From: Chamaesiphon polymorphus CCALA 037
Lineage (GTDB): Bacteria; Cyanobacteriota; Cyanobacteriia; Cyanobacteriales; Chamaesiphonaceae
DNA: 32,866 bases
Reading direction: 5' to 3'
Assembly: GCF_003003845.1 (NCBI RefSeq)
Contig: NZ_PVWO01000013.1
Span: 1 to 32,866 of the forward strand
Position 1 is the first letter of the stretch. Every line of letters starts with the position of its first letter. Position numbers and translations under genes: made by a program. Below the pieces are notes generated by a model. That model was not told the origin of the DNA. It saw nothing but the letters and a program-made list of their open reading frames with translations, and ran no database searches. Positions 9,053-27,700 of this stretch are shown here, piece after piece.

Positions 9053-9427
9053 CTAAATTCTGCTTTTCCCTCTAGATGATAGATTAAATAGTTGTCGATC
9101 GATCGAATTAATTAATCGACTGTCTAATTCCTGAATAATTTTATCTCCATCGATCGCACCTAGATCGAGCAATCGATCGACTGCTTCACCTAGTAATTGA
9201 TGCTTCCGCGTTCGCGCTGCTCGACAAGCCTTATGTTCTAATTGGCGAATCTTAATCTGTTTGTTGCTACTTCTCAAGTCATCGATTATTGCTGTTGCTT
9301 TCTTGACTCTTTCAGAACGTTTCTGAACCCCCTCTGCCAACACGTCCTTTACCTTAGTAGAAGTCCGACCATCAGTTGTGAATTCGATATTGTCGCTAGT
9401 TTTATTGAGAAATTTCTGTTGTTTCAT
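9053..9427 (-). CDS. Small basic protein, possibly TraD/MobC-like relaxosome accessory (124 aa)
   Basis: A basic, helical protein with lysine/arginine-rich stretches. HKACRAARTRKHQLLGEAVDRLLDLGAIDGDKI loosely resembles the (R)KARTR..LGG.V.KAGL pattern of the small conjugal transfer protein family TraD, which accompanies relaxases at oriT. The start ATG 9427 is preceded by AAGATGATGAA. It is the last gene of the long minus-strand operon, 107 bp after the P-loop gene. If it is a relaxosome component, an oriT and relaxase should be close, but neither is recognisable here. A plasmid partition accessory is the main alternative. Confidence 0.45.
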   Translation of the reverse strand: MKQQKFLNKTSDNIEFTTDGRTSTKVKDVLAEGVQKRSERVKKATAIIDDLRSSNKQIKIRQLEHKACRAARTRKHQLLGEAVDRLLDLGAIDGDKIIQELDSRLINSIDRQLFNLSSRGKSRI

Positions 9428-9534
9428 TTCATCATCTTGCTTGGATCGAATGTCCAGTACGTGTATTACAAGCTCAAACTATAAGTTGGTGTCAAGTTCA
9501 TCTTTTATTTGGTGATAACATAATTTAATAAGTG

Positions 9535-10182
9535 CTAATGTACTTTAATTTCTGGCGCGATCGATTCTTCTATGCTAATAAAAGTTGTGTGAAGAAAACG
9601 ATAAATTCGGGTGCGAGATATTGTAGGCATATCTAAAGTTAGGTCTAATAAACTCTTTTTTGTGAGTTCGATCTCTCTAGTATCTTTTGGTGAAATCCCA
9701 AATTTTTGCATGGACAACCTTTTAATGTCTCGATATTCATACTTGTCTCCATTTAAGCTGTTAAGGTAATATTCATTATCAACTATGAAAAAATGAGTGC
9801 TGAATACTTTGATAATCTTAGTGGATAATCGATCGTACCCGCTATTAATATGCCAATAATAGATTGGTATGTCCAGCCTGTCGATCTCGATATTCTCAAT
9901 CCAATTCTCAAAGTGCAAATTATCATAAGCTGGAATTTTAATAATTGCGGTAACTCCACAGTCTGAAATTTCGATCAGGCGATCTGCCTCGATACTATGA
10001 CAATCGAATCTAAGATTGAAATTGCGATTGAGGCTTGGATTATAAATTTCTCCTACTGACTTATCGGCACTAGCATCGAGCATTACTACTGGCGATTTTT
10101 GTCGTAAATACTCGATCGCTGCACGAATGAACCAACTTTTTCCAGCTTGATTTCTCACACTACCTACAAAATGTAATGACAT
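9535..10182 (-). CDS. P-loop NTPase, ParA/CobQ/MobB-like (215 aa)
   Basis: The N-terminus reads HFVGSVRNQAGKSWFIRAAIEYLRQKSPVVMLDASADKS. This is a beta strand, a Walker A loop GSVRNQAGKS (about 7-16), a helix, and a second strand ending in LDASADKS, as in the SIMIBI/ParA-CobQ fold where the switch aspartate follows. The loop lacks the signature lysine of typical ParA (KGGxGK), so it is closer to StbB/MobB-type proteins. It starts 1 nt after the stop of the 1885-aa gene (TAATATG), implying translational coupling. Likely roles are plasmid positioning, or an ATPase partner of the giant protein or the relaxosome. The C-terminal half is not recognisable. Confidence 0.6.
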   Translation of the reverse strand: MSLHFVGSVRNQAGKSWFIRAAIEYLRQKSPVVMLDASADKSVGEIYNPSLNRNFNLRFDCHSIEADRLIEISDCGVTAIIKIPAYDNLHFENWIENIEIDRLDIPIYYWHINSGYDRLSTKIIKVFSTHFFIVDNEYYLNSLNGDKYEYRDIKRLSMQKFGISPKDTREIELTKKSLLDLTLDMPTISRTRIYRFLHTTFISIEESIAPEIKVH

Positions 10183-10183
10183 A

Positions 10184-13100
10184 TTAGATTACTAGTGCCT
10201 CTTGTTTGTCCGATCGCACGTAATCATCTAACTTTTCAGCTTCTAGCGGTTCGCACAGGCTTTTTAATGTTTTCTTGGTTGGTTCTACTTTTAGTGCTGA
10301 TTCTGCTACAATCTCGATCTCTTCTTGCTCGTTAGTACTTGCTATTTGACTCTGAGTTTTATTGACTTCATCGATCTTCGCTGCCAGATCGAGTTTGACA
10401 GATTTAGCCGTCTTAGGCGATTTAGCCTTTGTAATGCGCTTCTTTTTAGCTTCCGGCTCCATTACTGCTGCTGGGGATGGAGTTACTTCCATAGTCTGTT
10501 TTAACTGCTGTTGGCGTTCTACAGCGCGTCCTTGAGGAACTGCTTCCGCATAGCCACTGGGATGATCCAAAATCGCATAACCTGAGTCACGTAAATATTG
10601 TTTGGTAAGTGCATCGATACTATTGCCATTACCTACAACAATTGTTGCCCCAGCCTTCCGAGCCGATTTAAGTAAGGGCAAATATTCTGCTTGAAAGAAT
10701 TTACCCATGACTTCTCGACCGATCTGCTTGTTGACAAAACGGTTCCCCGTTACCATCACCACATCTGAGGACGTGTAGCTTGGAGAATTAGCATTTCTAC
10801 CGTAGGCTTCAACGTATAAATCGGTGCGTGTTGTAGCTTCTGCTAGTGACTTGCCAATGAATTTATTGGCACTAAATCCCATTGCCACATCTATTGCCGC
10901 CCGTGCGGGTAATTTATCGAGTCGATCGACATTAAAAGTCTTGAGTACAGGATTAATCGTATTACCTGTTTCGCGATCGAAATTATAGCTGAGTTGATGG
11001 TAATGCTCGCGCACGTAACTCTCTAATTCTGCTGTCGGAATAACTGCGGCATAAACCGGACGTTGCCGCTGCTTGGAGGTATATTCAACATTAGTTAGAG
11101 TATCGCCCAGAGCGTTATTAAACTGTTGGCGAAGATAATCGACTCCAAATGAGAATACTGCGTGTTTACCATCTTCAGTAACGCCCATCCTCGCGCCAAA
11201 CCGAGATCGTACTTCTGCTTGAATACCTCTAAGAAATGAAGGCACCGAACCCAGCTTATCGACATCGATTGCAGGTAACTCAGTGCTGACAAGATCGGCT
11301 TGAGCGAGCCAATCGCCAAGTTTCCGTAAATCCTGCCCGATGACTGGACGCACTACTCTAGCATCGCTTAACGCTTGCTGATAAGCATCTGGTTCGAGCG
11401 GCTTGCCAAATTTAGAGATAAAGCGGTCTAGTTTATCGACTTTTGAGCCTTTCTTTTGCTCTAGCTCGACTGGATCTACGACTAATACCTCATAACCGCG
11501 CCGATATTCCTCAACATAAGCAGGATGAGTATCGAGATAAGACTGATATGGAATCTTCTGTTTGTTCAGGTATTCTTTGATTTCACCAGCACCACTAACT
11601 GGCAGATCGATTTGGTAAAAATTCTTGAAATCGACTCCCTCATTTTTAATAACTGGTTGTACGATCTCAGTCATTAAAATTGAATTATTGCTCGATCGAT
11701 TCAAAATCTGCGACCTGATCTTAGCGTTTTGAGTATCCGTCTCACTCGGCTCCCGTTGATAAATAGTTGGCTCGTATGATTTAGATTCCGCCCGAATCTT
11801 CCACACAGCAGCATTTGTAACTCTCTGAGGATCGGGAATATCTAGTCGATAGTGATGATTGGGTGAAATAGCCAAAATTTGCTCGTCACCAGTCAATTGG
11901 GCGGTAGTAACAGAACGAGCGGTGATATCCCCTAATTTGCATCGATTGCCATCGACATTTTGATATAGTTCGTATCCGATCGTTACTGGGTCTGTTTTAA
12001 TTATTTGACGATCGATATTCTTAAATGCCACATAACCAGATAGAACTTTACTGTAATCGATTGGCTCTCCTGCTGCATCGCTATCCGGCATTACTCCAGT
12101 TAAATAATACTCTCGTCCGCTGTCTTCGAGAACTGCTGAGAATGATGGCTTCTGATTTGTGAGCGAGCGAGGGTTTACCCGAAATTCACTAAATTGTAGA
12201 TTTCCAACTGCATCGTCACCGATGGAGCGATCGAATAGTTCGTTCGCTCCATCGCTAGTATAAACCACCGGACACTTTAATCCTTTGATATCGATTTGAT
12301 AGGGTGTGCTAGTAACTTTCTCAAGTGTCAAGTCTTGGGAAATTTCTACAGACTTACCAGATGTTGTCAAATTAACCGCAAGAATGCGCTTGTTATTATT
12401 CAATTGGATCGACAAGTTGACAGTCTCTTTTTGCAAACGGCCTTCACCCAGTAATCCTGCTGGTAAAACAGAATACATCCCCGCCTTCGCTTTATCTGCA
12501 AAGTTACCAAACTGTCGATAAGCCTGACGATGTATGTTCGATGCAAATTCAATCTTATGACTGTTACCATCGGGTGCGGTCAGGTTTAAAACACCCTTGT
12601 CATCAACATTAAATTTGACTCGTTCCGTACCCAATGATTCGAGTAATTCGGCGGCACTTTTGTCGAGAACGAGCGATTCATCGGCGGCGACCTTAACTCG
12701 TTCGACCAAACTTTGCGGATATGCGGCTAACAGCAATGCTGGGTTAGCATTCCCAGTTACCTTCGCAATTGCAGCTAAACTCTCTGTTTGGCCGATTTCA
12801 GCTCGCTCGAATGCTTGATGCATTTTTACCACTGCGGCTTTACGTTCGCGTTGAATCGCTGCTTTCGCATCACCAACTTTCACAAAATCGATTAAACCTT
12901 TAGCTACTCCTGCTTGGAAATCTACAGCCTCAAATTCGATCGTCTCCTCTCCACACTTTTGGACAAAAGCTTTGCACCACTCGCGATCTAACGAGCCGAC
13001 ATCATGTTGTGTCACAAATTGACCATTAATATTTCGCTCGATGTAAGTCGCAGTCCCATCGCGTAAATTTAATCTAAATTCACCAAATTCAGCATTTTTA

Positions 13101-15841
13101 AGTGCGTTGATACCGCCGATCTCTAAGTCGAAAATATCGATTTTCGTCCCTGCATATTTGATTTCAAGATAAGTTCGCTTCTGACCTGCTAATTTAGCGA
13201 TGCGATTGTATTCTGCATATTTGTCGATTGCCTCCTGATCGTCATTGATATAAAAACCTGCAATTGCCAATGCTCGATCGGAAACAGGAATATCTTTAAA
13301 TGCTCCAGTTAGGTTGGCATTAGTAGAAATAGTCTCGCGATTCTCGTTCCGAGAGGCTACGCCAACGAGCGGTTGATAATTTTGATTGCACGAATCTTGT
13401 AAAATCTCTGGCAAACTAAAGCCAGTCGGTCTGGGCTTGAAGTTGTTATTATAAGCAAGCGATTTAGATTTTCCAGATACTGAAGCGTATTTATCACGGC
13501 TAAAGTTAGTAGCAATTGCCGAACTCAATTCCACTTCGATCTGATTTGCCGACTTAAAAACATCAACAGCATCTTGATTGAGTTGACTCGTAATCACAAT
13601 CGCCTCATCTAATACAGTTTGATACAATATCAATCGATCGATACTAGATAGTTCTGGATCGGCAGCTAAACGATTTAACTTAACTGACTCGCTATCTTTA
13701 TATTCGATAAAGCTTTTCGTTGGCGGATCGAACCGTTCGCGAGTTTCGGTAAATTGAATTGGAAGGCTAGTATCGATAACCTGCTCGATCGACCGCGAGA
13801 GCTTTTGATACCGATCGATAACTTCTGCTAATTCGCCAGAGAGTTCGGGGTATTTTTTGATAAAATTTGGTAAATAAATTCGGTTGAAATCATCGATCGC
13901 AGTCAATAGCTTTTCGGGCAACTTGGTTTTGACCTTCCCATCGGGAGTGGTGAATTCCAACCGCTCGTAGTTATCGCGGAATCGAGCCAGGGACTTCTGA
14001 AAATCCATCATCTTGAATAAAGACCGATGGTATCCACTACTTTCATAAGCCGCAATCGTCCACTTCTCATCAAAAGAATCGCTAAAAACTTGAGCTGCAT
14101 CTTTAATCGGACTGGGTAAAGCTACTGGATGAAACTCTCCATCTATTCCCATCCCAGTAAAGTTATCTTTAACTACTGCAAATAAAGCCCGATTTGTCTT
14201 CTCCAAATACTCGATTGCCAGTCGATCGATTAACTCCGCATCGCCACTATCGACCGCCAGATCGATCTCCGAACTGGATAAGTGTAGCCGTGCTTTCTGG
14301 CTATAAACTAAATTGACGTAAGGCGGACGAATGTGAACTGCCACCTCCGGTAAAGTCATCTCTGTCGGCAGATTTTTTGCCCGTTTTTCAAAGTTAGGTA
14401 GTTTGGCATCTGGATGTTCGTTTGCTTGCACTGCCGCATATAAATTTGGGACGATCGTGCGCGAAATGGCATTGCCAGTATCTCCGTCATAGTCCATCTG
14501 AGTGGCTTCCATTAACGTCTGAAATTCTGCTTTAAGGCGTTCGGCTGTGCCATATTCCTCGATCAGCGCATCGTAGGTGTCTGAGTCTTCTGTCTCGATT
14601 CGTTCGAGTGTCTGAATATTGACATACATGATATCGGGATCGGCTCCCAATTTTTGTAAACTTTCCCAAGCTTTCAGGTTATTTTTGAGCGTGACTAGCC
14701 CGTTGCGATTGACTACTGGAGAGCGAAAAAATACAAATTCTTCACCATCCTTGAGCCAAGGTACGGCAATCTCTCCATATCTGAGATCCCATGCCGGAAG
14801 AACCGTCGCATTGTCACCGTTCAATCGCCGAGTATCGGCAAATGAGAGATTGCGCCAGGATGCACTCAACCTGTCTCCCAACCAGTCTTTAACTTGGACG
14901 GAGTTAAGCAAATCGTACCGCCCCGTACTCAATGCCATATCCATCAAATTGATGGTGTTAAACTCGTCAGGCTGAGCTTCATTCTCCATGTAATAGTCAT
15001 TTAATGCCCATGCAGCAGCCAATACTAGATTTTGACTGTGAGCGGCAAGAACTTGAGCTTCTGCTCGAACGACAGGCAATACGTCATGCGCTGCTTGAGG
15101 ATAAATCGATAATACTTCACTAATCGCTGACTTAGTATTTTGGCTGTCGTTCTTGATGCCGAAGAATAATTCTTCCGGTCGATATTCATACATTCCAGGC
15201 ACGGGCTTTTGCCCCTTGAAGCTATCGAGCGATAGAATCATGTCTGGAGCGTCGCCAGCCGGAAATAACTGAGGTAGATCGATCGTATTTAAGAATCCTT
15301 TGGCAAATGTGGTAGCTTTAGCACTTTTGACCCCCATCCGAAATTGGATTGCTTTACTTTTACCTGTTAGCTTCTTCAATAAATTTTTATCGATCGCCCC
15401 ACAAGAATCATGAACGAATTGGCGTGAGATTTCAGCGGGAATATTAGCGTTACCACTGTCGTAACCGTTGGCAAAATCGACTACTGCAATCTTTAACGGA
15501 CGATCCGCTTTGAGTGGTTCGCAACCACCTTTGAAGATGCTAGCGTAAGCTCCAGCTAAATAATCGATCGGCAGTACTTGCTTGAGTTTTTGGGCAGCTT
15601 CTGGCGAACCGTAGATGAGATCGTCGCGATCGACTAAAATTAGTTGCGTTCCGGCAGGAGCGTTACTAATAATCTCTGCTTGAGTTGTAAAGTCATCATT
15701 TTGGGCTAAATATAACAGCTCTCCAGGGATAAAGAAATCTAGTAATGTTTCACCAGGAATCTTGCGCTCGGCGGGTTGTTTGGTTTTCGGATCGATCCGA
15801 ACTTTTTGAGCGAATAGGCTGTAACGAGTTAAATCTGTCAT
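10184..15841 (-). CDS. Giant protein with a putative two-barrel (QDE-1/YonO-like) RNA polymerase core and SLOG-like C-terminal domain (1885 aa)
   Basis: The start ATG 15841 has an AGGAG box about 7 bases upstream. Motifs in order: VHDSCGAIDKNLLKKL (about 143-158), like the DG.G.IS segment of RNA-dependent RNA polymerases; AIQFRMG (164-170) then AKG (K181); ILSLDSFKG (K209); VFFRSPVVNRNGLV (about 370-383); MDYDGDTGN (D450, D452, D454), matching the metal-binding DxDGD; and AVDVFKS (758-764), like the AVD..K motif downstream of the active site in that family. K181 and K209 would be the second-barrel lysines. The middle, about 800-1600, is beta-rich and unassigned. About 1660-1770 holds VVMVTGNR and GATIVVGNGNSIDALTKQYL, a SLOG/DUF2493-like Rossmann unit, followed by a lysine-rich tail. 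The gene sits in the conjugation operon between the DUF192 and P-loop genes. The polymerase call is by motif only; activity is untested. Confidence 0.6.
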   Translation of the reverse strand: MTDLTRYSLFAQKVRIDPKTKQPAERKIPGETLLDFFIPGELLYLAQNDDFTTQAEIISNAPAGTQLILVDRDDLIYGSPEAAQKLKQVLPIDYLAGAYASIFKGGCEPLKADRPLKIAVVDFANGYDSGNANIPAEISRQFVHDSCGAIDKNLLKKLTGKSKAIQFRMGVKSAKATTFAKGFLNTIDLPQLFPAGDAPDMILSLDSFKGQKPVPGMYEYRPEELFFGIKNDSQNTKSAISEVLSIYPQAAHDVLPVVRAEAQVLAAHSQNLVLAAAWALNDYYMENEAQPDEFNTINLMDMALSTGRYDLLNSVQVKDWLGDRLSASWRNLSFADTRRLNGDNATVLPAWDLRYGEIAVPWLKDGEEFVFFRSPVVNRNGLVTLKNNLKAWESLQKLGADPDIMYVNIQTLERIETEDSDTYDALIEEYGTAERLKAEFQTLMEATQMDYDGDTGNAISRTIVPNLYAAVQANEHPDAKLPNFEKRAKNLPTEMTLPEVAVHIRPPYVNLVYSQKARLHLSSSEIDLAVDSGDAELIDRLAIEYLEKTNRALFAVVKDNFTGMGIDGEFHPVALPSPIKDAAQVFSDSFDEKWTIAAYESSGYHRSLFKMMDFQKSLARFRDNYERLEFTTPDGKVKTKLPEKLLTAIDDFNRIYLPNFIKKYPELSGELAEVIDRYQKLSRSIEQVIDTSLPIQFTETRERFDPPTKSFIEYKDSESVKLNRLAADPELSSIDRLILYQTVLDEAIVITSQLNQDAVDVFKSANQIEVELSSAIATNFSRDKYASVSGKSKSLAYNNNFKPRPTGFSLPEILQDSCNQNYQPLVGVASRNENRETISTNANLTGAFKDIPVSDRALAIAGFYINDDQEAIDKYAEYNRIAKLAGQKRTYLEIKYAGTKIDIFDLEIGGINALKNAEFGEFRLNLRDGTATYIERNINGQFVTQHDVGSLDREWCKAFVQKCGEETIEFEAVDFQAGVAKGLIDFVKVGDAKAAIQRERKAAVVKMHQAFERAEIGQTESLAAIAKVTGNANPALLLAAYPQSLVERVKVAADESLVLDKSAAELLESLGTERVKFNVDDKGVLNLTAPDGNSHKIEFASNIHRQAYRQFGNFADKAKAGMYSVLPAGLLGEGRLQKETVNLSIQLNNNKRILAVNLTTSGKSVEISQDLTLEKVTSTPYQIDIKGLKCPVVYTSDGANELFDRSIGDDAVGNLQFSEFRVNPRSLTNQKPSFSAVLEDSGREYYLTGVMPDSDAAGEPIDYSKVLSGYVAFKNIDRQIIKTDPVTIGYELYQNVDGNRCKLGDITARSVTTAQLTGDEQILAISPNHHYRLDIPDPQRVTNAAVWKIRAESKSYEPTIYQREPSETDTQNAKIRSQILNRSSNNSILMTEIVQPVIKNEGVDFKNFYQIDLPVSGAGEIKEYLNKQKIPYQSYLDTHPAYVEEYRRGYEVLVVDPVELEQKKGSKVDKLDRFISKFGKPLEPDAYQQALSDARVVRPVIGQDLRKLGDWLAQADLVSTELPAIDVDKLGSVPSFLRGIQAEVRSRFGARMGVTEDGKHAVFSFGVDYLRQQFNNALGDTLTNVEYTSKQRQRPVYAAVIPTAELESYVREHYHQLSYNFDRETGNTINPVLKTFNVDRLDKLPARAAIDVAMGFSANKFIGKSLAEATTRTDLYVEAYGRNANSPSYTSSDVVMVTGNRFVNKQIGREVMGKFFQAEYLPLLKSARKAGATIVVGNGNSIDALTKQYLRDSGYAILDHPSGYAEAVPQGRAVERQQQLKQTMEVTPSPAAVMEPEAKKKRITKAKSPKTAKSVKLDLAAKIDEVNKTQSQIASTNEQEEIEIVAESALKVEPTKKTLKSLCEPLEAEKLDDYVRSDKQEALVI
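13341..13368. repeat. Cyanobacterial interspersed short repeat inside the giant gene, copy 2
   Basis: TTCTCGTTCCGAGAGGCTAC followed by GCCAACGA is the reverse-complement relative of the repeat at 1878-1902; both share the CGTT.GC..AGC.TCTCGG core and an adjoining AATCGC. Here it lies in frame within the 1885-aa coding sequence, encoding part of PLVGVASRNENRE, so it is tolerated as a small insertion between putative domains. Confidence 0.5.
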
Positions 15842-15844
15842 CGA

Positions 15845-16360
15845 TTATCTCCTGGGGATAAAGCGAATTTCCACAGTCGAGCCAACTGCAATCTTGAGCT
15901 TATTGGCGATTCCAGCTTTGACTTCAACTACTCGATCGTATGGTTGATTGGTGCGATGTTCTAAACATCTTTGCTTGTCGCAAGCTTCGACACGATCGAT
16001 ATAAGCGACCCGATTACCATTGAGAAATAAGATATCCGTTGCAAACTTATTATCCTTGCCACTAAATGCTGTATCTGACGTGAAATCGCCAGCATATAAC
16101 ATTCCGCGATCGTCTGCCATATCCTTACTTTCTCGAAAGGTCAGCCCACGAGCGATATCCAGTTTCGTTCGCGCCACCTCTAAATCCACCGCTTTATCAC
16201 CATTAATTAATTGTGCTTCAATCGGTAAAATAATCGGTGAATTTCCAGCAATTTCTTCTGTCTTAAAACCTTGCATCATAAAGGGAAAAACCAGGAAGAA
16301 TATCCAGTAAAATTGACTGTATCCGGGCTTTTTTGGCTGCCGATCGATCTGCTGATTCAT
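15845..16360 (-). CDS. DUF192 family protein with N-terminal membrane anchor (171 aa)
   Basis: A hydrophobic segment at about 17-35 (SQFYWIFFLVFPFMMQGF) serves as an uncleaved anchor or signal. DUF192 follows: VEVARTKLDIARGLTFRESKDMADDRGMLYAGDF, then TDILFLNGNRVAYIDRVEAC and VVEVKAGIANKLKIAVGSTVEI. The usual F(W)MKNT segment is replaced by FSGKDNKFA, a divergence from chromosomal homologues. DUF192 proteins are small extracytoplasmic beta-barrel proteins of unknown role; here it may be a periplasmic accessory of the transfer apparatus. It begins 2 nt after the AAA+ stop and ends 3 nt before the giant gene's ATG, so all three are probably translated from one message. Confidence 0.8.
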   Translation of the reverse strand: MNQQIDRQPKKPGYSQFYWIFFLVFPFMMQGFKTEEIAGNSPIILPIEAQLINGDKAVDLEVARTKLDIARGLTFRESKDMADDRGMLYAGDFTSDTAFSGKDNKFATDILFLNGNRVAYIDRVEACDKQRCLEHRTNQPYDRVVEVKAGIANKLKIAVGSTVEIRFIPRR

Positions 16361-16362
16361 GG

Positions 16363-17874
16363 TTAATTACAGTTGAGTGAATATAGTGGTTCTTCTGGTA
16401 AGTCAAATGGATTGGGCAGATCCGAACTCGAAGCTTCGGTAAAAGCTTTAGCCCTATTCTCAATCGCCATAATCCCTTCAGGGTTACGGCTATAGAGCGT
16501 TCTGATGCGGGTTCTCGCGGCTAAAATATCTTCAGCCGATAGTTCTATCGCCTCCCCAGCTTCAAGGCGATAGAATTGGTAGGTGGCAGCTTCGATGGCC
16601 ATTTGTGCGAGTTCGGCACCAGTACATTTTTCGGTACGCTCTAGGATGCTAAACCACTCCCGATCGGTCAATCTTCCGTGCCCTGTTTTATAAGCAGAAT
16701 CAAACCGTGCCAAGTGCAATTGTAAAATTTCCTTGCGTTCGGCGGCTTTGGGAAAGTCAACATAAAAAGTGCGGTCGAAACGACCCGCACGAGTAAGTTC
16801 GGGAGGAAGATTTTCCAGTCTGTTTAATGTGGCAAGTACGAATGTTTGACTGGTCTTTTCATTCAGCCAAGTGAGAATTATACCCAGAAACTCACCAGCG
16901 TTTTCACCCATGAAAAATTTGTCGAACTCATCAAAGTAAGGCAGACATGGTTCGCAAGCATCGATACGTTTGAGCAACCGTTTAAATTTAGCTACGCCAC
17001 CAGATTTAGCTACGTCTATACCGATATTAATTAGTGGAAATCCGAGTTTTTGAGCGCAAACCTTAGCAAAATAGGTTTTCCCCGCTCCAGGCACCCCCAC
17101 CATCAACCAACCGCGAGGAATCGGAATATTATAAGCACGAGCTTCTGGTGCAAATGATTTCTGTACGCCGACTAATGCCTCTTTGACGATATCTAAGCCA
17201 CCGATATCTTTGGTAGCGGTTTCGCCAATAAATTCTAGTCCGTAAGTAGCGAATAACTCGTACTTGTAATCCAATAACCGATCTGCTGCCGTGTCGAGAT
17301 CCATCCCTAATTCAATTGGTTTTAACGCAATCCGAATTTCTTCTAAAGTTAAGCCAGACAAGATATTTAAAAATTTAGGATTGTCTGCTGGCAATTGTGC
17401 TGCCGCAATTAGATCCCGTACTTCTGCTGGCGTAGGCAAAGGAAAATCGTAACTGTAAATCGATTGGACGAACTGCTTGGGAATCTCGCCTGTTTCCAGA
17501 AACACGATCCGCCGCTCGTTGTCACGTTGAAGATGAAAAAACAGGTTGAGAATCGCCTGATGCGCTCGAACTTGTGAGGGTCGATCGAGCGAGGCGATCG
17601 CGGTAAATAAATCGATGTAGACTGAAATACCCGACTGTAAAGCTTGTGGAGCTAAGTGACGTAAGATCTCAAAGCCAAGATCGAGATCGTCCGCCCATTC
17701 ATTTAAGATCCGATCGATCGAGTGCCATCCTGAAGCAATCGAACTCCAACATTGAATGGGTCGCTGCATTTGTTCGGCAACTACTTGCAATTTTAAGATA
17801 CTGTTTTGTTGTTCGATCGCTCCAATCTCAATCCCTACTAGGGGACGATTGGCGAGGGTGGCGGCTAGACTCAT
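16363..17874 (-). CDS. AAA+ ATPase, Ycf46-like (503 aa)
   Basis: The N-terminal half (about 1-215) resembles the Ycf46 regulatory region: a degenerate P-loop-like domain with SVYIDLF and RRIVFLETGEIP, then a helical LTLEEIRIALKP segment. The C-terminal AAA+ module has IGGLDIVKEAL (about 224), Walker A GVPGAGKT (260-267), Walker B CLPYFDEFDKFF (about 307-318), sensor-1 FVLATLNRL and the arginine-finger box TRAGRFDR, followed by a helical lid (CTGAELAQMAIEAA). All catalytic residues look intact. Such ATPases remodel or unfold protein partners. Being encoded 70 bp after the 598-aa gene and immediately before the DUF192 and giant genes suggests it handles one of them. FtsH-like proteolysis is excluded because there is no HEXXH. 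Confidence 0.85.
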   Translation of the reverse strand: MSLAATLANRPLVGIEIGAIEQQNSILKLQVVAEQMQRPIQCWSSIASGWHSIDRILNEWADDLDLGFEILRHLAPQALQSGISVYIDLFTAIASLDRPSQVRAHQAILNLFFHLQRDNERRIVFLETGEIPKQFVQSIYSYDFPLPTPAEVRDLIAAAQLPADNPKFLNILSGLTLEEIRIALKPIELGMDLDTAADRLLDYKYELFATYGLEFIGETATKDIGGLDIVKEALVGVQKSFAPEARAYNIPIPRGWLMVGVPGAGKTYFAKVCAQKLGFPLINIGIDVAKSGGVAKFKRLLKRIDACEPCLPYFDEFDKFFMGENAGEFLGIILTWLNEKTSQTFVLATLNRLENLPPELTRAGRFDRTFYVDFPKAAERKEILQLHLARFDSAYKTGHGRLTDREWFSILERTEKCTGAELAQMAIEAATYQFYRLEAGEAIELSAEDILAARTRIRTLYSRNPEGIMAIENRAKAFTEASSSDLPNPFDLPEEPLYSLNCN

Positions 17875-17944
17875 CGGATATGTATGGTGGTTTTATGCTT
17901 CTTAATTCCCATCGTTGCTCGGTCTTTAGGCTGATTAAAATAAC

Positions 17945-19741
17945 CTATTGTTGCAGCGATTCTTCCTCGGCAATTGCTAACTCTCGTTCGATTTCTACCA
18001 ACTTGGTAGCCTCTGAGTCGTCATTCAACTGCGCTAGCAGACCCGTTTTCGCAAGAGCTTGGTTCTCGTTCTCATCCGGTAAATCGTTTAGATCGGCCAA
18101 GCTGAGAACTTTCTCTGCTCGAACCTGTGTGGCTGTGGATAATTCCTGTTTTTGAGTTTCGAGAACCTCATCAGCCGCTATTACCGTGGGAGTCTTAACT
18201 ACTTCGCGAGTAGCGATATTTTTCAATTCGCCCACAGCCGAATTAACCTGGGCAAATCCTGCTTTAGCTTGCTTGGCAACCCCTGTCGCAAGTTCCACGT
18301 CACCCGCGTTGGCAGCTCCTCGCTCGCTCGATAGCAAGCGTTCCACTTCATCACCATCAGCTCGAATTTTAGCGATAATTTGCATTGAATTGGAGGTCTT
18401 GCCCCCAGTGGTTAACTCAGATAAAATCGTTCCTGTGGCAGATACTTTGCCATCTACGTCGATCGTTAACTTGCCGTTGTCATTGCTAATCGTGGTAGCT
18501 TTAGCATCTTTGACAAGCTGATAAGACTTATCGCCAAACTCGAAAGATTTTTGTCCCTCTGGCAGATTTTTGACTGCGTTTGCTAGATTACTTAATTGTG
18601 TTATTGGTTTAGATACCGACTTGGCTCTAGGAGTAAATTCACTGCCAAACTGTCCGTTAAAACCTAGTTCGGCAGAATCGAGTACATCGTCGATCGACTC
18701 GATATTAACATCGTGAACGGTAACTTCCCCGTCTTCATTGGCAATGAACGTAAATGGCTCCGCTCCAGCTCTAGTAACTGTGTATTTTGTACTATTGCCA
18801 AGATCTGCTGTGGCTCGGATCGTTACCTGGTTCTTCCCGTTGCCGATGACAAAGTTGTTTTTGTCGGTTTTGCCGATCTCGTGCAACCGCACTAGTTGCT
18901 CCAGCCGCTGCCGATTATTGGCTAGGGGATCGTTAACGCTCTCTGTATTAGATTGCGCTACGTTTGTCTGGGCTGATTCTAAAACTACCGCAGTTGGCAG
19001 CTCTCCAATTAAATCGCCATTAACGACCTCGGATTGCTGTTGGGCGAGGATGCGGCCTGTTAGCGATTCGCTGGTGATCTTTGTCAAATTGGGATTTAAT
19101 ACCGCAGGGATGGTATCGCGATTGATGGCGGCTTCAATTACCGCCGAATCCATGTGTTCGGCAATGGCATTCATCTCGACCTTGCCGTCTTTAACTTCTA
19201 ATAATTTCACTCCCTCTGAGGCAATAGTGACGTTATAGAAATCATGAGGAGCGTTTTCTCCTTCAGGAGTCTTGAGTAAATCGATTAGTTTCTTGGCTTG
19301 TTCTGCACTACTACCTCGAACTTCTTCTTTAATATTTACTTTGCCCTTAGACCGATCGAACATAAATCGCTTAATCGATCCCAATGTATCGCTTAATCTA
19401 GATTTGAAGTCCTTGAAAGAATCCTTGCTCTTCGCTAAAACAAATTGCTTGGATAACTTGATAATCTCAATGGTTAGTTGCACTGACTTCGTAGGCAGTT
19501 CGATTAAGTCCTTGCCAGCTCGATCTAAATCTTTGGTCTTCTGCTTTAGTTTTGCTGCTATATCTGCTGATGTTTGTTCCTCTTTATTAGATTCTTTTGA
19601 TAACAATAGTGCCGCTGCCGCCCCGACGATATTCCCCCCAATCTTGCCGATACCTTCGGCGAAATCTTCAACAGGTTTAGAAATCTCCTTAGCTGTCATG
19701 CCTTGAAATGCTGATTCTGCTTTAGCCTGAATTCCGTCCAT
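17945..19741 (-). CDS. Large hypothetical protein of the conjugation operon (598 aa)
   Basis: I do not recognise this family. Visible features: an N-terminal helical stretch with a small-residue hydrophobic patch IGGNIVGAAAALLLS (about 32-46) that could insert in or bind a membrane; a lysine-rich helical section (about 60-140); and beta-rich middle domains with repeated charged strands (NNFVIGNGKNQVTIRATAD, KSFEFGDKSYQLV, GKLTIDVDGKVSATG). The C-terminus is acidic and helical, rich in Glu/Gln and ending EEESLQQ. No enzyme motif is visible. The beta segments resemble in style the unassigned middle of the 1885-aa protein. The gene lies between the 223-aa unknown and the AAA+ ATPase, so it may be the substrate or partner of that ATPase. 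Confidence 0.7.
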   Translation of the reverse strand: MDGIQAKAESAFQGMTAKEISKPVEDFAEGIGKIGGNIVGAAAALLLSKESNKEEQTSADIAAKLKQKTKDLDRAGKDLIELPTKSVQLTIEIIKLSKQFVLAKSKDSFKDFKSRLSDTLGSIKRFMFDRSKGKVNIKEEVRGSSAEQAKKLIDLLKTPEGENAPHDFYNVTIASEGVKLLEVKDGKVEMNAIAEHMDSAVIEAAINRDTIPAVLNPNLTKITSESLTGRILAQQQSEVVNGDLIGELPTAVVLESAQTNVAQSNTESVNDPLANNRQRLEQLVRLHEIGKTDKNNFVIGNGKNQVTIRATADLGNSTKYTVTRAGAEPFTFIANEDGEVTVHDVNIESIDDVLDSAELGFNGQFGSEFTPRAKSVSKPITQLSNLANAVKNLPEGQKSFEFGDKSYQLVKDAKATTISNDNGKLTIDVDGKVSATGTILSELTTGGKTSNSMQIIAKIRADGDEVERLLSSERGAANAGDVELATGVAKQAKAGFAQVNSAVGELKNIATREVVKTPTVIAADEVLETQKQELSTATQVRAEKVLSLADLNDLPDENENQALAKTGLLAQLNDDSEATKLVEIERELAIAEEESLQQ

Positions 19742-19790
19742 GATTTTTCTCTATATTTAGATATTTAATTTGAGCTGCTAGAATTGTTAT

Positions 19791-20462
19791 CTATGCTTCA
19801 AGTGACAGTAATTCATATACCGGATAATTAACTCCTGCTGGCTCGCTCGATCTTCCGACGAGTTCTGCATACATTGCTGGTGTGTAGTTTACAAGGAAAA
19901 GATTTCGTTCGGGGATGTCGATCGTACCATCATCATCCACTGTATAGGGCACTAGGTCGTCAGGATGCTGGCGGATGTACTCGACAGCTTCTGGCTCTAT
20001 GCGTAAAAATTCTCCTGATTGCTCCATTACGCCAACGATCTCATCTACATCGATCCAGAAAGGAGTAGTGTTTACATAATCACTGCCGCAAAAAGCAAAC
20101 GTACATGGAGTCATATTGCGGAAAATAATCTTCTCTAGTTCGAGGGAATTAACCTCAACTAGTTCGCCGTCGATGTATGTGAGGATGTATCTAAAGTCCC
20201 GATCTAAAGAAGTTTTATAAACTGTTTTGCTTACACCGCGTACTCGCTCCGAGACGATCGAGTATTCATCGAAAATCTCAACTTTGTGAAAGTCTAAGTT
20301 GTGAAATGGCTTATTTGTGGCAATACTTAGCTCCATTAATTCCCGAATCCGTGGAATGTTGACAGTACTGGAGTCGCAAAAAACAAACCGCTCGATGTAA
20401 TTAATATCTAATGTGGGAAATCTGAGCGTGTCTAGTTTGGGGTACTTAGTTTTTAAAGTCAT
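19791..20462 (-). CDS. Hypothetical protein (223 aa), start corrected to ATG 20462
   Basis: The ORF track uses a TTG at 20474, but ATG 20462 has a GGAG box at the right distance (GGAGCCAATTATG), giving MTLKTKYPKLDTLRFPTLD. The protein is soluble, acidic and mixed alpha/beta, with no signal peptide. Segments include YILTYIDGELVEVNSLELEKIIF, PFWIDVDEIVGVMEQSG and DDDGTIDIPERNLFLVNYTPAMYAEL. No catalytic motif is recognised. It follows the coupling protein gene by 37 bp and precedes the 598-aa gene. A role linked to substrate selection is conceivable only from position. Confidence 0.65.
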   Translation of the reverse strand: MTLKTKYPKLDTLRFPTLDINYIERFVFCDSSTVNIPRIRELMELSIATNKPFHNLDFHKVEIFDEYSIVSERVRGVSKTVYKTSLDRDFRYILTYIDGELVEVNSLELEKIIFRNMTPCTFAFCGSDYVNTTPFWIDVDEIVGVMEQSGEFLRIEPEAVEYIRQHPDDLVPYTVDDDGTIDIPERNLFLVNYTPAMYAELVGRSSEPAGVNYPVYELLSLEA

Positions 20463-20499
20463 AATTGGCTCCAAAATAATATAAATAACGTTCGTTCGA

Positions 20500-22749
20500 T
20501 TATAAGGTAGAAACTAGAGGTTTCTCAGTATCTGTCTCCCCATCATAAGTTTCATCATCTGTATCTGTCTCTACGTCATCTGTCTCTACCTCTGGCTCGA
20601 TAATTGGATTCGAGCAATAGATCGGATGAGAAAGATCGGGGGATTTAATAAACTTAATTCCGTGACTCTCTAACAGCAACAAAAGTCGGTCGATATCGTC
20701 TTTTGCTTTGTACGCATCAAACTTCGCCCCACCTTCCTTGGACTTTGTAGACCATTCTGAATAGATGAGAATATCATCGTTTTTGAAGACCTTAGATTCT
20801 TCAGCCAGTTGATATGGCGAAGGGTTGTCGTGGGCATCGGGATAAAGTACTACATTAACCAGCGTAGTTAATTTGGCTAACAATTTACCCTGTGGCGGTT
20901 CGGGGAAAAGGCGTTCGACGATTGCCCTGCGCTCGGTCATAATTTCGGCGTATTCGGCATTACTCAATTGCCGTTTGCTCGACTGAATTTTAGATAATAG
21001 CTTGTCCCAATGTCCGACCGATCGCTTACTATTTTCGATATCTACTTGAGAGACTTTAATGTCGTGTAAAATTGGAATATATGCCTCCTTTTTATTGCTA
21101 TAGCCAGGGGATATCGTTACAGCTTTACCTTGTGGTAATTTCAAAAATTCCTCTGGAGTCATTAATGGCACTTGCGTCCGTTGCTCCGATCTCGATACCG
21201 TGGCGTTACCTTGTCCGCTCCCGCTGTTGATGCTCTTAGTCCAATAAACTATCTCTTTCTCCCCTAAATACTCTGAGTATTCCTTTGCGCTACCTACATC
21301 CTGCGGATTTAGGTAATGCTTGGTGGCGCAATTACTCATCATCGTATTCGCCCGATCCTCACCATAGGTTTCGTTAAGTTGGCTTTTATTTTGGAGGCCG
21401 AGCAATCCGACGAATCCCGCCGATCGTGATTCAGCCAACCAATTAGCCAATTTAGGTAATCTCAGCGACGGAATTTCGTCGAACGAGCAAATTACTGGAG
21501 TTATTCGGTGACGCGAGTGAGCGACATTACGGGAGATTAATACGTCGAGAACCGTTGCGAGAATCGGTGTGAGAATCGCCCGATAGTCTTGGTTTAGCCC
21601 GACAACTACGAGTGTTTTTCCTTCAATGTCAGGATTGAAGTCGCTCTTACCACATAGAGCAGAAACGAAATCTCGCTCGATGAACTTCTGGAAGACCTTA
21701 GCTGCGTTACCGATGATGCCACCCTCAGTAACATTTGTCTCCTTTTTGCCACCACCAATACCGATTAGCTGACTGAAAGCTTTGTCATTCCAGACATTTA
21801 GGCGTTTGCTGGCAAACTTGAGCCGACTGCTGAGGTTCGGTAACGCGATGATGGCCGCAGCCGTCATCAGATCGCCAAGTTCTGGTCTGTTCTCTTGTTC
21901 TGCCACCCATTTAGCTGCTAAGAATAAACCTTTAACCAGCGTCACCCCCGCGTCCGTGAAGAACTCATTTCCACCAGCATTTTTATCGCTACCCTTGAGA
22001 TTTTCGAGCATTACTTCTGCCATATTTCCGGCAGCAACTCCATGACCGGAATCATCGATAAAATCGAGTAAGTTGATGGTGCAAGATTCGAGGAAACTCG
22101 GCGCGAAAATCTGGATGTTGTAGCCATGCTCTTTGGCATAGCCGACAATCTCCTTAGACTGTTCGTAATATTTAAAATCGTAGAGAACGATCGACAGTCC
22201 TTGATCGATTGCCGAACGCAGGTAAGGGTTGAGTACTCCATAAGATTTCCCCGTACCAGCCGCCCCAAATACCGCAGTCCCAGCTTGACAATCGGGGAAA
22301 TATACGGTGGAATCGCGTTGGAGTAAGTTAGGAAACTTTGGTAAGTTTTTATGGCTTTGGCGAATCTTCTGGGCGATCTCGGCATCGCCCAATCCCTGTT
22401 GTTTTAGGGTTCGTTTGATGCCACCAATCGTCGCGCGATAGTGAGTCAATTGAGATCTTTGTGGTTGATTGATATACAGGCAAGTTTTGCCAACCTTAGA
22501 CCTCCTGTTAGCCACCTGTAGGCGACCCTTAATTTGAGAGTTTTTGCGCTCTTTAGCTCCACCCCAGTAAGCTTTACCCAGCTTGCCCTGCGGTTTCTTA
22601 CTGCATAGTGCGGCAACGAGCAAAATTAACCCACAAGCCGAAATTAACCCCAATGGCGAAACAATAAAGCTCTTGGCTTGGACGATGGTTGGTAACTGCT
22701 GAGGTATTGGCTGATGGCTAACTGACTGCGGGTGCTGAAATTTCGTCAT
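20500..22749 (-). CDS. virD4: Type IV coupling protein, VirD4/TraG/TraD family (749 aa)
   Basis: The track start at 22881 overlaps the upstream gene by 133 bp; the ATG at 22749 overlaps that gene's stop as TAATG and is the natural start. One transmembrane segment (about 28-49, FIVSPLGLISACGLILLVAALC) anchors the protein. The ATPase domain has Walker A FGAAGTGKSYGVL (about 161-173), a Walker B/DE box VICSFDEIPSLRLP, and the hallmark SRSAGFVGLLGLQNKSQLNETYGEDRANTMMSNC, where a Q-rich sensor follows. Coupling proteins bring relaxase-bound DNA to the secretion channel. The C-terminus ends in an acidic DVETDTDDETYDGETDTE stretch, a candidate interaction tail. All core motifs are intact, so it should be functional. 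Confidence 0.92.
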   Translation of the reverse strand: MTKFQHPQSVSHQPIPQQLPTIVQAKSFIVSPLGLISACGLILLVAALCSKKPQGKLGKAYWGGAKERKNSQIKGRLQVANRRSKVGKTCLYINQPQRSQLTHYRATIGGIKRTLKQQGLGDAEIAQKIRQSHKNLPKFPNLLQRDSTVYFPDCQAGTAVFGAAGTGKSYGVLNPYLRSAIDQGLSIVLYDFKYYEQSKEIVGYAKEHGYNIQIFAPSFLESCTINLLDFIDDSGHGVAAGNMAEVMLENLKGSDKNAGGNEFFTDAGVTLVKGLFLAAKWVAEQENRPELGDLMTAAAIIALPNLSSRLKFASKRLNVWNDKAFSQLIGIGGGKKETNVTEGGIIGNAAKVFQKFIERDFVSALCGKSDFNPDIEGKTLVVVGLNQDYRAILTPILATVLDVLISRNVAHSRHRITPVICSFDEIPSLRLPKLANWLAESRSAGFVGLLGLQNKSQLNETYGEDRANTMMSNCATKHYLNPQDVGSAKEYSEYLGEKEIVYWTKSINSGSGQGNATVSRSEQRTQVPLMTPEEFLKLPQGKAVTISPGYSNKKEAYIPILHDIKVSQVDIENSKRSVGHWDKLLSKIQSSKRQLSNAEYAEIMTERRAIVERLFPEPPQGKLLAKLTTLVNVVLYPDAHDNPSPYQLAEESKVFKNDDILIYSEWSTKSKEGGAKFDAYKAKDDIDRLLLLLESHGIKFIKSPDLSHPIYCSNPIIEPEVETDDVETDTDDETYDGETDTEKPLVSTL

Positions 22750-23855
22750 TATGGTACCTTCACTTGGCGGTAAATAGAAGAGCCAACCACCGGAATGGCA
22801 ATGCCGCGATTGCGTTCGGAAATAGTCAAGTACAGGGGTATGGGAATAAAATAGGGAGAGCAACCAGCCAGCCAAGAGCATACCCGCGTATTCATGTGAA
22901 TCAATGCCGTACCTTTTTTGGCATTAACGTTCGTCAGGATGAATTTCACGCCCCCAGAGCCGATATCGACAACGATTCCAGCAGGTTCGCGTCCGCCATT
23001 CATTAGAGCCAATAGCCCGCTGCCGCCAGGAACTGATTGACTATCTCCTGAAATCATCCGCGCTCCATTGAGATAGGGCATCCCTAACACCGCTCGAAAC
23101 TCACCATAATCGCATTTGGTAATGCACTTATGCGCTCCGTTATCAGAAATCACCATGTGTTGGATATTCCGCTCGTTCGTCCGCACCAAATCTAACCGAA
23201 TCGCCGCCACCCCAACTGGATATGAAAACCCAGGCATTCTAGAGATAAGTACCTCGCTCAATCCAGGGATCGTATTTGCTGTTAAATTAGAAATCCCAGG
23301 AAACTGGTTGAACTGAGTGTTTTGAATTTGGGGAAATTGGGCGATACTCGTTTTGCGTAAGTCAGCAACACTTCCTAGAGTTGCATTGGGGTTTTTAGCC
23401 GCTAAATTGCCCACTGTCGTCCGCGAACCATCGGCAGCCGTGACAGGCATTTGTGCCATCCCTGGAGTTGCCGCAATATCGCCAACTTTTAAGCGACTCA
23501 ACCACGGGGTCGCTGTAGCCAAACTGCTATTGGAGTCAACCCGCGTACCATTTTTAGCCGCAATCTGAGCTGGAGTCAATTTGCCTGCTGCAAAAGTAGT
23601 ATTCCACACAGACATTGGAACACAAGCTGCTGGAGCTACCCCAGCGGGACAATTAATTGAAGTTACCCCGCCCATCGAGCTTTGAGCTTGAGATGGGACA
23701 TTAACCCTCACTGAATTAGGATAGGCTGGCATCGCACCAATGGTCGAGTTGCCGAGTGTTTCTTGAATAGTTTGGGCATGTACGGGATGAATATTTAATC
23801 CCAAACAAACACCCACAATTGGTAAAATTGAATGTCGAAATTTGAATCTTGCCAT
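22749..23855 (-). CDS. Secreted cysteine-containing conjugation-locus protein (368 aa)
   Basis: A clear signal peptide (MARFKFRHSILPIVGVCLGLNIHPVHA/Q) is followed by a Gly/Ala/Asn-rich, mostly beta protein. Six mature cysteines come in three close pairs (INCPAGVAPAACVP, CITKCDYG, VCSWLAGC), implying three short disulfide loops in an oxidising compartment. The C-terminus holds hydrophobic strands (YFIPIPLYLTISERNRGIAIPVV) but no obvious transmembrane helix. It lies between the VirB9-like region and virD4 and overlaps the virD4 start by one base, so it is probably a structural part of the transfer channel or pilus. F-type TraU/TraW-like roles are possible, but no sequence match is evident. Confidence 0.7.
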   Translation of the reverse strand: MARFKFRHSILPIVGVCLGLNIHPVHAQTIQETLGNSTIGAMPAYPNSVRVNVPSQAQSSMGGVTSINCPAGVAPAACVPMSVWNTTFAAGKLTPAQIAAKNGTRVDSNSSLATATPWLSRLKVGDIAATPGMAQMPVTAADGSRTTVGNLAAKNPNATLGSVADLRKTSIAQFPQIQNTQFNQFPGISNLTANTIPGLSEVLISRMPGFSYPVGVAAIRLDLVRTNERNIQHMVISDNGAHKCITKCDYGEFRAVLGMPYLNGARMISGDSQSVPGGSGLLALMNGGREPAGIVVDIGSGGVKFILTNVNAKKGTALIHMNTRVCSWLAGCSPYFIPIPLYLTISERNRGIAIPVVGSSIYRQVKVP

Positions 23856-24106: not shown

Positions 24107-24850
24107 TTAAGAACCAAGCAGAATTAATTTAGATACTAAATTCAAATCGATGCGATGCTTGGTTGCAGCATTAAGTAGCGGCATTCCTCCATGCACGTCA
24201 AGAATAAATCGATCGATTGGATTGTTGCCCCGTCTATCGTAGTTGGGAACTTCATTCCGATTGACAGCAACTTTCAAACCTTTGAATAGCTTAGAACTTA
24301 AAGCATTTAACCGCAGAGAATTCTCTTTCTGGCGCAAATCCTCGGCATTTTTGACGGCAATCGGATCGTAATATCGCGGAGGAGGAGCAGCTTTGATAAA
24401 GTTAATTTGAGCGATCGCTTCGTCTCCAGGTCTGCCTTGACGCAAACTAAAAAGGTACGTTCGGCGGTTATTCGCTCGATCTCTAGTCCTAATCGTCAGT
24501 ACTGATTGAGTTGCAATCGAGTTCACTTTGGTTACTCCAGGTAATTGAAGTTTGTCAATTAGAGTTAAATGCACTAAATTTGCTGGATCTTGACAACCTT
24601 CTTGTACTGCAAGACAACCTTCCGCCTTGATGCCAACAAAGGAGCGATTGTCGGCAATCATTGTTTGAATGTATTCTCCAGCTCCTTCAAAGTTAAGGTT
24701 AACGCCCACTCCAGGGATGATATTTACAACCAACACGCCATTCATCGGCGTGGATACTTCCCGAACGATCGGCTGATTAGCAAGACTAGGAGATCCCGCA
24801 ACAAGAGTCGAAATTAACACTAATGGCAATCCTAAATATTTTTTCAACAT
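24107..24850 (-). CDS. VirB9/TraK-like secreted T4SS protein (247 aa)
   Basis: A signal peptide (MLKKYLGLPLVLISTLVAGSPSLA) precedes a beta-rich domain beginning NGVLVVNIIPGVGVNLNFEGAGEYIQTMIADNRS, comparable to the strand pattern at the start of VirB9/TrbG/TraK secretins. KLQLPGVTKVNSIATQSVLTIRTR and RRTYLFSLRQG follow. One Cys pair (CLAVQEGC) is present. The C-terminal half is helical and divergent, lacking the usual VirB9 C-terminal barrel. It sits directly after virB10 with a 5-bp gap, where VirB9/TraK homologues are expected, and would form the outer ring of the core complex. The assignment relies partly on position. Confidence 0.6.
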   Translation of the reverse strand: MLKKYLGLPLVLISTLVAGSPSLANQPIVREVSTPMNGVLVVNIIPGVGVNLNFEGAGEYIQTMIADNRSFVGIKAEGCLAVQEGCQDPANLVHLTLIDKLQLPGVTKVNSIATQSVLTIRTRDRANNRRTYLFSLRQGRPGDEAIAQINFIKAAPPPRYYDPIAVKNAEDLRQKENSLRLNALSSKLFKGLKVAVNRNEVPNYDRRGNNPIDRFILDVHGGMPLLNAATKHRIDLNLVSKLILLGS

Positions 24851-24855
24851 TCCTC

Positions 24856-26796
24856 TTACCTCACTGCAAACGGCTTAACCGCAACGATCGTCATTTTGTA
24901 TCCCATTGGCAGATACCAGAGTCTGGACGCACTCTCCAACCGCCTAATCTCGGTTTCATTACGTTTCGACCAAGCCTCAAGAATCGGTGTCGCACCGCCA
25001 TCTAAAATTCCACCTACAATATTGGGATTGCTAGTACTACTAACAACAGCCGTGCCATTAGTCGAAACTTGAACCGATGAATTAGGTTGAGTTAGAACTC
25101 TTCCCAGCCCAGAAGCTGCCCCTGCTAAAAACGTCTGCAAATCTCGCCGACCGATTTCGCCCTGGTCGAACTGCTTGTATTGAGCGATGACGGGACTATT
25201 ATCGGTGCCACTGAGAATTAAACTCCCCGCATCAATGGGAATATTTTCACCATTAACGATGGCGATGGCTGAGGAGATTCGCATCAGTCCATTTGATGCC
25301 ACGGTGACAGTCGCAATAATTCTCGTGCCATCGGGAATAGGCACATCCCCATTGGTATCGGCAAAACCCTGTTCTAGTTGCAATAAAATTTCTTGTCCGG
25401 CTTCACCAGGAATGATTTGCATCGGGGAAATCAGCGATACAATCCTGTTCTGACCTGGGATAACGATCGCCTGCGCCACCGTAAAAGTTTTATTGTCTTT
25501 GTAATTATCTTTCTCTCCAGAATATTGAGAAATTGCCCGATCGACAGGTTGATAGTCTGGCTCGATCCCAGGCTGGGGAATAGCTTCTGAATACGACCTC
25601 GGATCGATCGACGCTATATAGTTAGCTGCTGCATTCTTAATCGTGCTAGCTTGTGGCACGAGTTGCCGCACGGGTTGCATCGATGGCTGGCCGAGTGGCA
25701 GGATTTGTTGTGGATATAACTGCCCAGCAGGTTGTACTAACGGTTGCAGAGACGATCTACCAACTGGTACATAAGATGATTGTCCATTCGATCGCACGAC
25801 TGGTTGTTGGTAAATCTGCGAGGTGACAGGTTGTGTAACTGGCTGTGGAATGGGTTGAGCGATAGTTTGTGGTTGCATCGGTTGTCCGATGGGTTGCACG
25901 ACAGATTTTTGGACGGATTCTGGCGTAGTCTGTGTGACGGTTTTCGATACTGTCTTCTCGCCATAAATTCCAATAGCGTTATCGGTAGCCTCTTGCCAGG
26001 ATACTGGCTGTTTAGGAACGATCGCCTCAGTCGCAGGAGCGGGCTGGGGTTTAACGATTGCCACTTTAGCTTGCGAGCTAGGTTGAGGCGTAGTTTTGGC
26101 TACAGGCTGAGGTTTAAACGCGATCGGCTGAGGCTTGGCGACAACCACTAGAGGTTTCGCCTTTGGCTCGCTGGCAACTCGCGGCTGAGGAGCTGGAGTA
26201 ATCGCAGGTGCGACAGCAACAGGCTTGGTGACTGGAGCGATTGGCGGTTCTACGTTTGTTGGTGGAGCAGATCTACTACTAGTAACGGGCGTAACCGCAG
26301 GAGCTGGTGTAACTGGGGTAGCCTGTGGATTAGGAGTTGCTGCGGTGGCTTTGGCATCTGCGGCGGCTTTGGCGAGCCGCTCGGCTTCTTGAGCTTTAGC
26401 TGCATCTTCAAGCCCCCGCGTCTGATCTTGCATTGCTAACTTGTTCTGCATGGTGGCAAAACGCGGATCGGGTGCAAACTCGGCTTTCGGAGCTGTTGGT
26501 TCGTTAGTCGGGGTCGCAGCTACTGTCGGACTGTTCTGCCCACTATTTCCGAACATCATATATCCGAGTCCACCGATGGGAACTGCCGACAATCCCAAGA
26601 TTAGAAGAGATTTAACACCCCCTTGCTTGTGAAGGGGAATTGTAGTGCGCTGTTCCTCAATGTCACCACCTTCAGCATCGGCAGGAAGATCGTGCGGATG
26701 TTCGATCGTACCGGAAAGATCTGAATCGGTACCAACTAATTCGCTAAAAAATTCATTGTCTAAGGGAGGATTTTCTGAGTTGAATTTTGCTTGCAT
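24856..26796 (-). CDS. virB10: VirB10/TraB/TrbI core-complex protein (646 aa)
   Basis: An acidic cytoplasmic N-terminus (about 1-58) is followed by one transmembrane helix (about 61-83, VKSLLILGLSAVPIGGLGYMMFG). A very long Pro/Gln/Ala/Val-rich periplasmic spacer (about 95-430) has many QPV, PVT and KPQ repeats. The C-terminal TrbI/VirB10 domain (about 440-646) contains FTVAQAIVIPGQN, IPDGTRIIATVTV, PIDAGSLILSGTD and EIGRRDLQTFLAGAASGLGRVL, and ends YLPMGYKMTIVAVKPFAV. VirB10 spans both membranes and transmits ATP energy to the channel. The long spacer may reflect the thicker cyanobacterial peptidoglycan. The start at 26796 lies 2 nt after the virB8-like stop. Confidence 0.88.
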   Translation of the reverse strand: MQAKFNSENPPLDNEFFSELVGTDSDLSGTIEHPHDLPADAEGGDIEEQRTTIPLHKQGGVKSLLILGLSAVPIGGLGYMMFGNSGQNSPTVAATPTNEPTAPKAEFAPDPRFATMQNKLAMQDQTRGLEDAAKAQEAERLAKAAADAKATAATPNPQATPVTPAPAVTPVTSSRSAPPTNVEPPIAPVTKPVAVAPAITPAPQPRVASEPKAKPLVVVAKPQPIAFKPQPVAKTTPQPSSQAKVAIVKPQPAPATEAIVPKQPVSWQEATDNAIGIYGEKTVSKTVTQTTPESVQKSVVQPIGQPMQPQTIAQPIPQPVTQPVTSQIYQQPVVRSNGQSSYVPVGRSSLQPLVQPAGQLYPQQILPLGQPSMQPVRQLVPQASTIKNAAANYIASIDPRSYSEAIPQPGIEPDYQPVDRAISQYSGEKDNYKDNKTFTVAQAIVIPGQNRIVSLISPMQIIPGEAGQEILLQLEQGFADTNGDVPIPDGTRIIATVTVASNGLMRISSAIAIVNGENIPIDAGSLILSGTDNSPVIAQYKQFDQGEIGRRDLQTFLAGAASGLGRVLTQPNSSVQVSTNGTAVVSSTSNPNIVGGILDGGATPILEAWSKRNETEIRRLESASRLWYLPMGYKMTIVAVKPFAVR

Positions 26797-26798
26797 GA

Positions 26799-27659: not shown

Positions 27660-27700
27660 GAATTTAGATAGTTATTTAGTAATTAAAGTAATTTGAGAGT

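Follow-up and report, generated by a model that had tools for sequence, protein, structure and literature searches.

The window analyzed is a 32,866-nucleotide stretch of DNA from Chamaesiphon polymorphus CCALA 037 (contig NZ_PVWO01000013.1). Every gene of a run between positions 9053 and 32724, from a VirB4-like gene through a T4SS coupling protein gene to a P-loop gene, lies on the minus strand (Table 1). The single orientation that the initial annotation described, from the coupling protein to the 124-aa gene, agrees with the open reading frame coordinates, as do the tight junctions it listed. At 22749, the sequence TAATG overlaps the stop codon of the 368-aa gene with an internal ATG (M45) of the coupling protein reading frame. 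The longest reading frame of the coupling protein starts at 22881 and overlaps the 368-aa gene by 133 nt; the ATG at 22749 is the likely start judging from this arrangement. Downstream of the coupling protein gene, gaps of 25, 49, and 70 nt separate it from the 227-aa gene, the 227-aa gene from the 598-aa gene, and the 598-aa gene from the AAA+ gene. The gaps then narrow to 2 nt between the AAA+ and DUF192 genes, 3 nt between the DUF192 gene and the gene for the 1885-aa protein (hereafter the giant), and 1 nt between the giant and P-loop genes, and 107 nt separate the P-loop gene from the 124-aa gene. Relatives of these loci in the same genus repeat the tight junctions. A scan for consensus promoters and terminators returned no more sites than shuffled sequence, and these chance-level counts argue neither for nor against a single transcript.

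Table 1. Features of the minus-strand gene run in the window
Feature	Position	Strand	Basis
Giant, 1885-aa two-barrel RNA-polymerase-like protein	10184..15841	-	Invariant columns, AlphaFold2 model, Foldseek
DYDGD putative catalytic motif, giant residues 450-454	14480..14494	-	DxDGD in 23/23 aligned relatives
P-loop protein, 215 aa, directly after giant	9535..10182	-	Weakly ParA/CbiA-like via distant relatives
DUF192 protein, 171 aa, hydrophobic N-terminal stretch	15845..16360	-	PF02643, E 1.3e-15
AAA+ ATPase, 503 aa	16363..17874	-	PF00004, E 4.6e-16
598-aa protein	17945..19741	-	No Pfam match above cut-off
227-aa protein	19791..20474	-	No Pfam match; short relative adjoins coupling gene in G003:C149
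T4SS coupling protein (TraD/TraG type)	20500..22749	-	PF10412, PF02534, PF12696; TrwB/TraG-D E 4.6e-31
T4SS-operon protein, 368 aa	22749..23855	-	Relatives in G006:C3, G003:C149, and the pNLP1 T4SS operon
T4SS genes	24107..32724	-	pNLP1 VirB4 and VirB10 matches, shared gene order
VirB10-like gene	24856-26796	-	Match to pNLP1 VirB10
VirB4-like gene	30442-32724	-	Match to pNLP1 VirB4

The T4SS genes of the window share their order with the Nostoc plasmid pNLP1: VirB4, relatives of the genes at 26799, 24856 (VirB10), 24107, and 22749, and the coupling protein. The AAA+ protein has relatives on 707 plasmid records, 593 of them typed conjugative, with enterobacterial conjugative plasmids predominating. 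It is thus far more common than the giant, and its presence alone is no sign of a shared module. A Pfam search gave no match for the giant or the P-loop protein themselves, and the P-loop relatives L013 and L014 gave weak CbiA/ParA matches that fall under the curated cut-offs. The relative of the 598-aa protein in G003:C149 is 1021 aa long and is alike over the first 280 residues only. Downstream of the operon the window encodes a protein with NERD and UvrD-type helicase domains (2147-4018) and a nuclease-like protein with CoiA_N and MUG113/T5orf172 domains (7257-8153).

The polymerase core of the giant is assigned to residues 1-900 and carries the motifs K181-G, K209-G, R373-x-P375, N387, D450-x-D452-G-D454, K489, and Q756-x-AVD-xx-KS764. 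The KG, KG, RxP, N, and DxDGD motifs and K489 are invariant in all 23 aligned relatives, which are 20-64% identical, and DxDGD is present in every relative whose reading frame extends that far. The QxAVDxxKS motif is also conserved and lies about 300 residues past the DxDGD/K489 region. Lys181 and Lys209, each followed by glycine, form an invariant basic pair that the model places in the first barrel. The KG pair and DxDGD reside on one polypeptide, so both barrels would belong to a single chain. This motif order agrees with the description of QDE-1, in which DPBB1 motifs are followed by the DPBB2 catalytic aspartates and a further helical motif (PMC1750930), and with the definition of the two-barrel fold (PMC7824862).

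Searching the PDB directly with the sequence of the giant gave nothing useful and no detectable similarity to solved polymerases. A 787-aa Pseudanabaena relative scores 25.6 bits (E 6.5e-6) for Pfam RdRP, above the cut-off of 23.8 bits, and hhalign aligns this relative to the giant family with E 1.3e-22. The AlphaFold2 model of residues 1-900 has a pLDDT of 71 and a pTM of 0.62. Foldseek ranked plant RDR2 as the top match to this model (E 4.7e-4), followed by RNA polymerase large subunits, and a search of a viral library returned a phage 'RNA dependent RNA polymerase' at E 7.7e-9. The TM-scores of the Foldseek matches are modest (0.26-0.36), so the fine detail of the model is not to be read. 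Alignment of the giant family with the single phi3T YonO sequence by hhalign paired the DxDGD regions in a match that was non-significant. An IMG/VR search found no relative of the giant, and a phage search gave one non-significant match. The invariant motifs, the Pfam RdRP match of the Pseudanabaena relative, and the Foldseek matches of the model together support placement of the N-terminal half of the giant in the two-barrel RNA polymerase superfamily, predicted to be of the single-chain RdRP/YonO type. The earlier description of the gene as polymerase-like is borne out by this evidence. RNA is the likelier product because the nearest folds of the modeled core are RNA polymerases. The two-barrel fold is also used for DNA synthesis, as in archaeal PolD, which counts against the RNA reading.

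The C-terminal part of the giant contains a separate domain (residues ~1630-1796) that is confidently predicted as alpha/beta and recurs in 38 of the sequences collected, a count that includes several duplicate loci. The model of the C-terminal half as a whole has low confidence and found no match among solved structures, and no function is assigned to it for these reasons. Complete relatives range from ~1260 to 3300 aa, and some carry additional domains. A 3308-aa relative from Iningainema tapete (L133:9896-19822) contains an SF1 helicase domain (1669-1834) and a cpYpsA SLOG domain (2770-2922). A 2805-aa relative on the Gloeothece citriformis plasmid pP742402 (L009:13932-22349) contains an RNase HI domain (2188-2316) and a second RNase HI-similar stretch at 2407-2551. 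Fusion of giant relatives to RNase HI or SF1 helicase fits work on RNA-DNA hybrids. The giant of Trichormus variabilis plasmid A (L005:13896-17769) is split into two reading frames that overlap by 8 nt. SLOG is a nucleotide-binding superfamily, and cpYpsA is present in the C-terminal part of one further relative. These two cpYpsA-bearing relatives and the predicted alpha/beta fold of the C-terminal domain in the window's giant would suit a conflict or signaling enzyme whose RNA or nucleotide product acts as a signal, read by the C-terminal domain, in defense against phages or between plasmids. The lack of a solved-structure match for the C-terminal half and the absence of consistent defense neighbors around the giants weigh against such an enzyme, which we consider improbable.

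Several characterized enzymes resemble the giant. The eukaryotic cellular RdRPs (QDE-1 and plant RDR2; PF05183) likewise hold two DPBBs in one chain, with DxDGD and a helical motif after DPBB2, and plant RDR2 is the best solved-structure match. The giant differs from them in its much larger size, its location on cyanobacterial plasmids, and its long extra C-terminal half. YonO of phage SPbeta and YonO-like proteins share the single-chain two-barrel layout with DxDGD (DNDGD in the phi3T copy), whereas the giant family spans 1260-3300 aa and is found on plasmids rather than prophages. The RNA polymerase of yeast linear (killer) plasmids differs from the giant in its subunit layout, and killer plasmids are eukaryotic cytoplasmic elements, unlike the cyanobacterial plasmids considered here. 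Like the giant, the killer plasmid enzyme is plasmid-encoded and of the two-barrel kind (PMC6211774). One clade unites the single-chain RNA polymerases of plasmids and phages (PMC10770324). YonO-like proteins have been reported in cyanobacterial genomes (PMC5467207), a set that may or may not include the giant family. We claim the family as a variant of the known single-chain two-barrel polymerases and not as a separate kind.

A tblastn search found relatives of the giant on 59 cyanobacterial plasmid records, of which 39 are typed conjugative or mobilizable and 20 non-mobilizable. Large plasmids usually carry one copy, and members are present on plasmids of the laboratory strains Trichormus variabilis ATCC 29413 and Anabaena cylindrica PCC 7122. 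A scan of genome contigs used an alignment narrower than A1, whose divergence was too great for this purpose, and detected 134 relatives; 80 were kept, and all are cyanobacterial by title. The giant matched in 29 of 292 sampled cyanobacterial genomes, and the closest relatives are in Chamaesiphon MAGs. Two weak relatives, G113:C1:4107606 (894-aa reading frame) and G281:C1:3774284 (226-aa reading frame), lie on contigs of at least ~4 Mb that are possibly chromosomes. These two may be YonO-like proteins of the kind already reported.

Neighbor profiles were built and located around each giant, and the T4SS test used the annotated T4SS proteins of pNLP1. Within the window's genus, seven of eight giants have a DUF192 gene on the same strand no more than 2 kb upstream, and the same proportion (7/8) have an adjacent P-loop gene. 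Two gene orders occur, AAA-DUF192-giant-P-loop and AAA-DUF192-P-loop-giant, and the AAA+ gene is off the contig in some cases. T4SS genes lie within ~11 kb at all four loci of the genus with enough flanking sequence (the window, G003:C149, G006:C3, and G008:C116). These data support conservation of the AAA+/DUF192/P-loop/giant set beside T4SS genes within the genus.

The set and the giant are separable in this genome. Contig G000:C369 (L019; 5215-8600) carries the AAA+ and DUF192 genes, a Uma2-like reading frame, the P-loop gene, and a VirB4-like neighbor without a giant. What appears to be one further giant, of the same type as the window's, is spread over G000:C96 (L031) and C738 (L046) and has no DUF192 or P-loop neighbors. 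The complementary coverage of the two pieces suggests that they belong to one gene.

Outside the genus, a DUF192 gene on the same strand within 2 kb upstream was found at 0 of 91 giants and an adjacent P-loop gene at 0 of 92. A T4SS gene within 10 kb was detected as a mere fragment at two loci only, and in pNLP1 the end of the T4SS operon is ~17.5 kb from the giant. Giants therefore regularly occur without T4SS, AAA+, and P-loop neighbors, the outcome that the initial annotation had named as its refutation, and the operon is not a general rule. The conserved cassette proposed in the initial annotation holds within the genus and fails beyond it. Different neighbors recur in the genome set. Among the 49 giant loci with ~10 kb of upstream flank, ParM is present at 43, a relaxase at 38, and an AAA+ gene at 18, mostly on the opposite strand; the loci are related to one another, so these counts are not independent. 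At 69 of 77 loci, a small divergently oriented gene is found no more than 500 nt from the giant, usually 30-50 nt upstream. The giant thus sits in its own apparent transcription unit outside the genus and would not be co-expressed with the T4SS there. More widely, the giant is associated with relaxase and ParM, in the part of large plasmids that serves transfer and partition.

The same observations bear on whether the giant is a passenger, a mobile-element polymerase placed behind the T4SS by chance and lacking a role in transfer. The window's gene order is absent from the 91 relatives outside the genus, and this genome has both a giant without the set and the set without a giant, as expected of a passenger. 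The proximity to relaxase and ParM recurs across many genera, however, and the same four genes occur in two orders within the genus, which makes a passenger quite unlikely. The claim that the giant is more than a passenger remains plausible through its ParM and relaxase neighbors, even though the general cassette on which it was built was not upheld. A link of the giant to plasmid transfer or maintenance is likewise plausible, and the neighborhood test does not refute it.

Our leading interpretation, put forward tentatively, is that the plasmid-encoded giant is an RNA polymerase or primase, acts on plasmid DNA, and helps plasmid transfer or establishment. The polymerase fold, the catalytic residues, the plasmid setting, and the proximity to relaxase and ParM speak for this role. 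The 20 non-mobilizable plasmids among the 59 and the separate transcription unit outside the genus speak against it. An alternative is a dedicated plasmid RNA polymerase that would express plasmid genes within the resident cell, in the manner of the two-barrel polymerases of phages and killer plasmids, and take no part in the act of transfer. In its favor, the fold class is common to phage and plasmid single-chain RNA polymerases, most relatives form a separate transcription unit with a divergent neighbor, and there is usually one copy per large plasmid. Such a resident enzyme leaves the genus-specific joining to T4SS genes unexplained, and we regard it as somewhat unlikely. The wider association with relaxase and ParM favors a transfer or establishment polymerase over a resident transcriptase, a signaling enzyme, or a passenger.

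For a transfer or establishment polymerase, the giant would be a backbone component of large cyanobacterial plasmids, an RNA polymerase-like enzyme with both barrels in a single chain, whose gene in the window's genus would have been joined to the AAA+/DUF192/P-loop set behind the T4SS operon. It may synthesize RNA from plasmid DNA while transfer is under way or immediately afterward. This RNA would be a primer or an early transcript made on the arriving single strand, with ssDNA as the presumed template, and the giant might enter the recipient with the DNA by passage through the T4SS. Conjugative primases such as RP4 TraC and ColIb Sog prime the transferred strand in the recipient; the role proposed for the giant is alike, and the catalytic fold is unrelated. 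An F-type T4SS is reported to move plasmid-encoded proteins, including SSB and ParA (PMC8406263), and delivery of the giant is conceivable to that extent. That a conjugation system encodes, and possibly delivers, a giant two-barrel RNA polymerase for incoming ssDNA, unlike any described conjugative primase, is hardly probable at present. If the enzyme is active, cyanobacterial plasmids would carry a widespread family of giant RNA polymerases that are kin to RNA-interference enzymes and phage polymerases, and one could then test whether conjugative plasmids supply an RNA polymerase of their own for the earliest events in the recipient.
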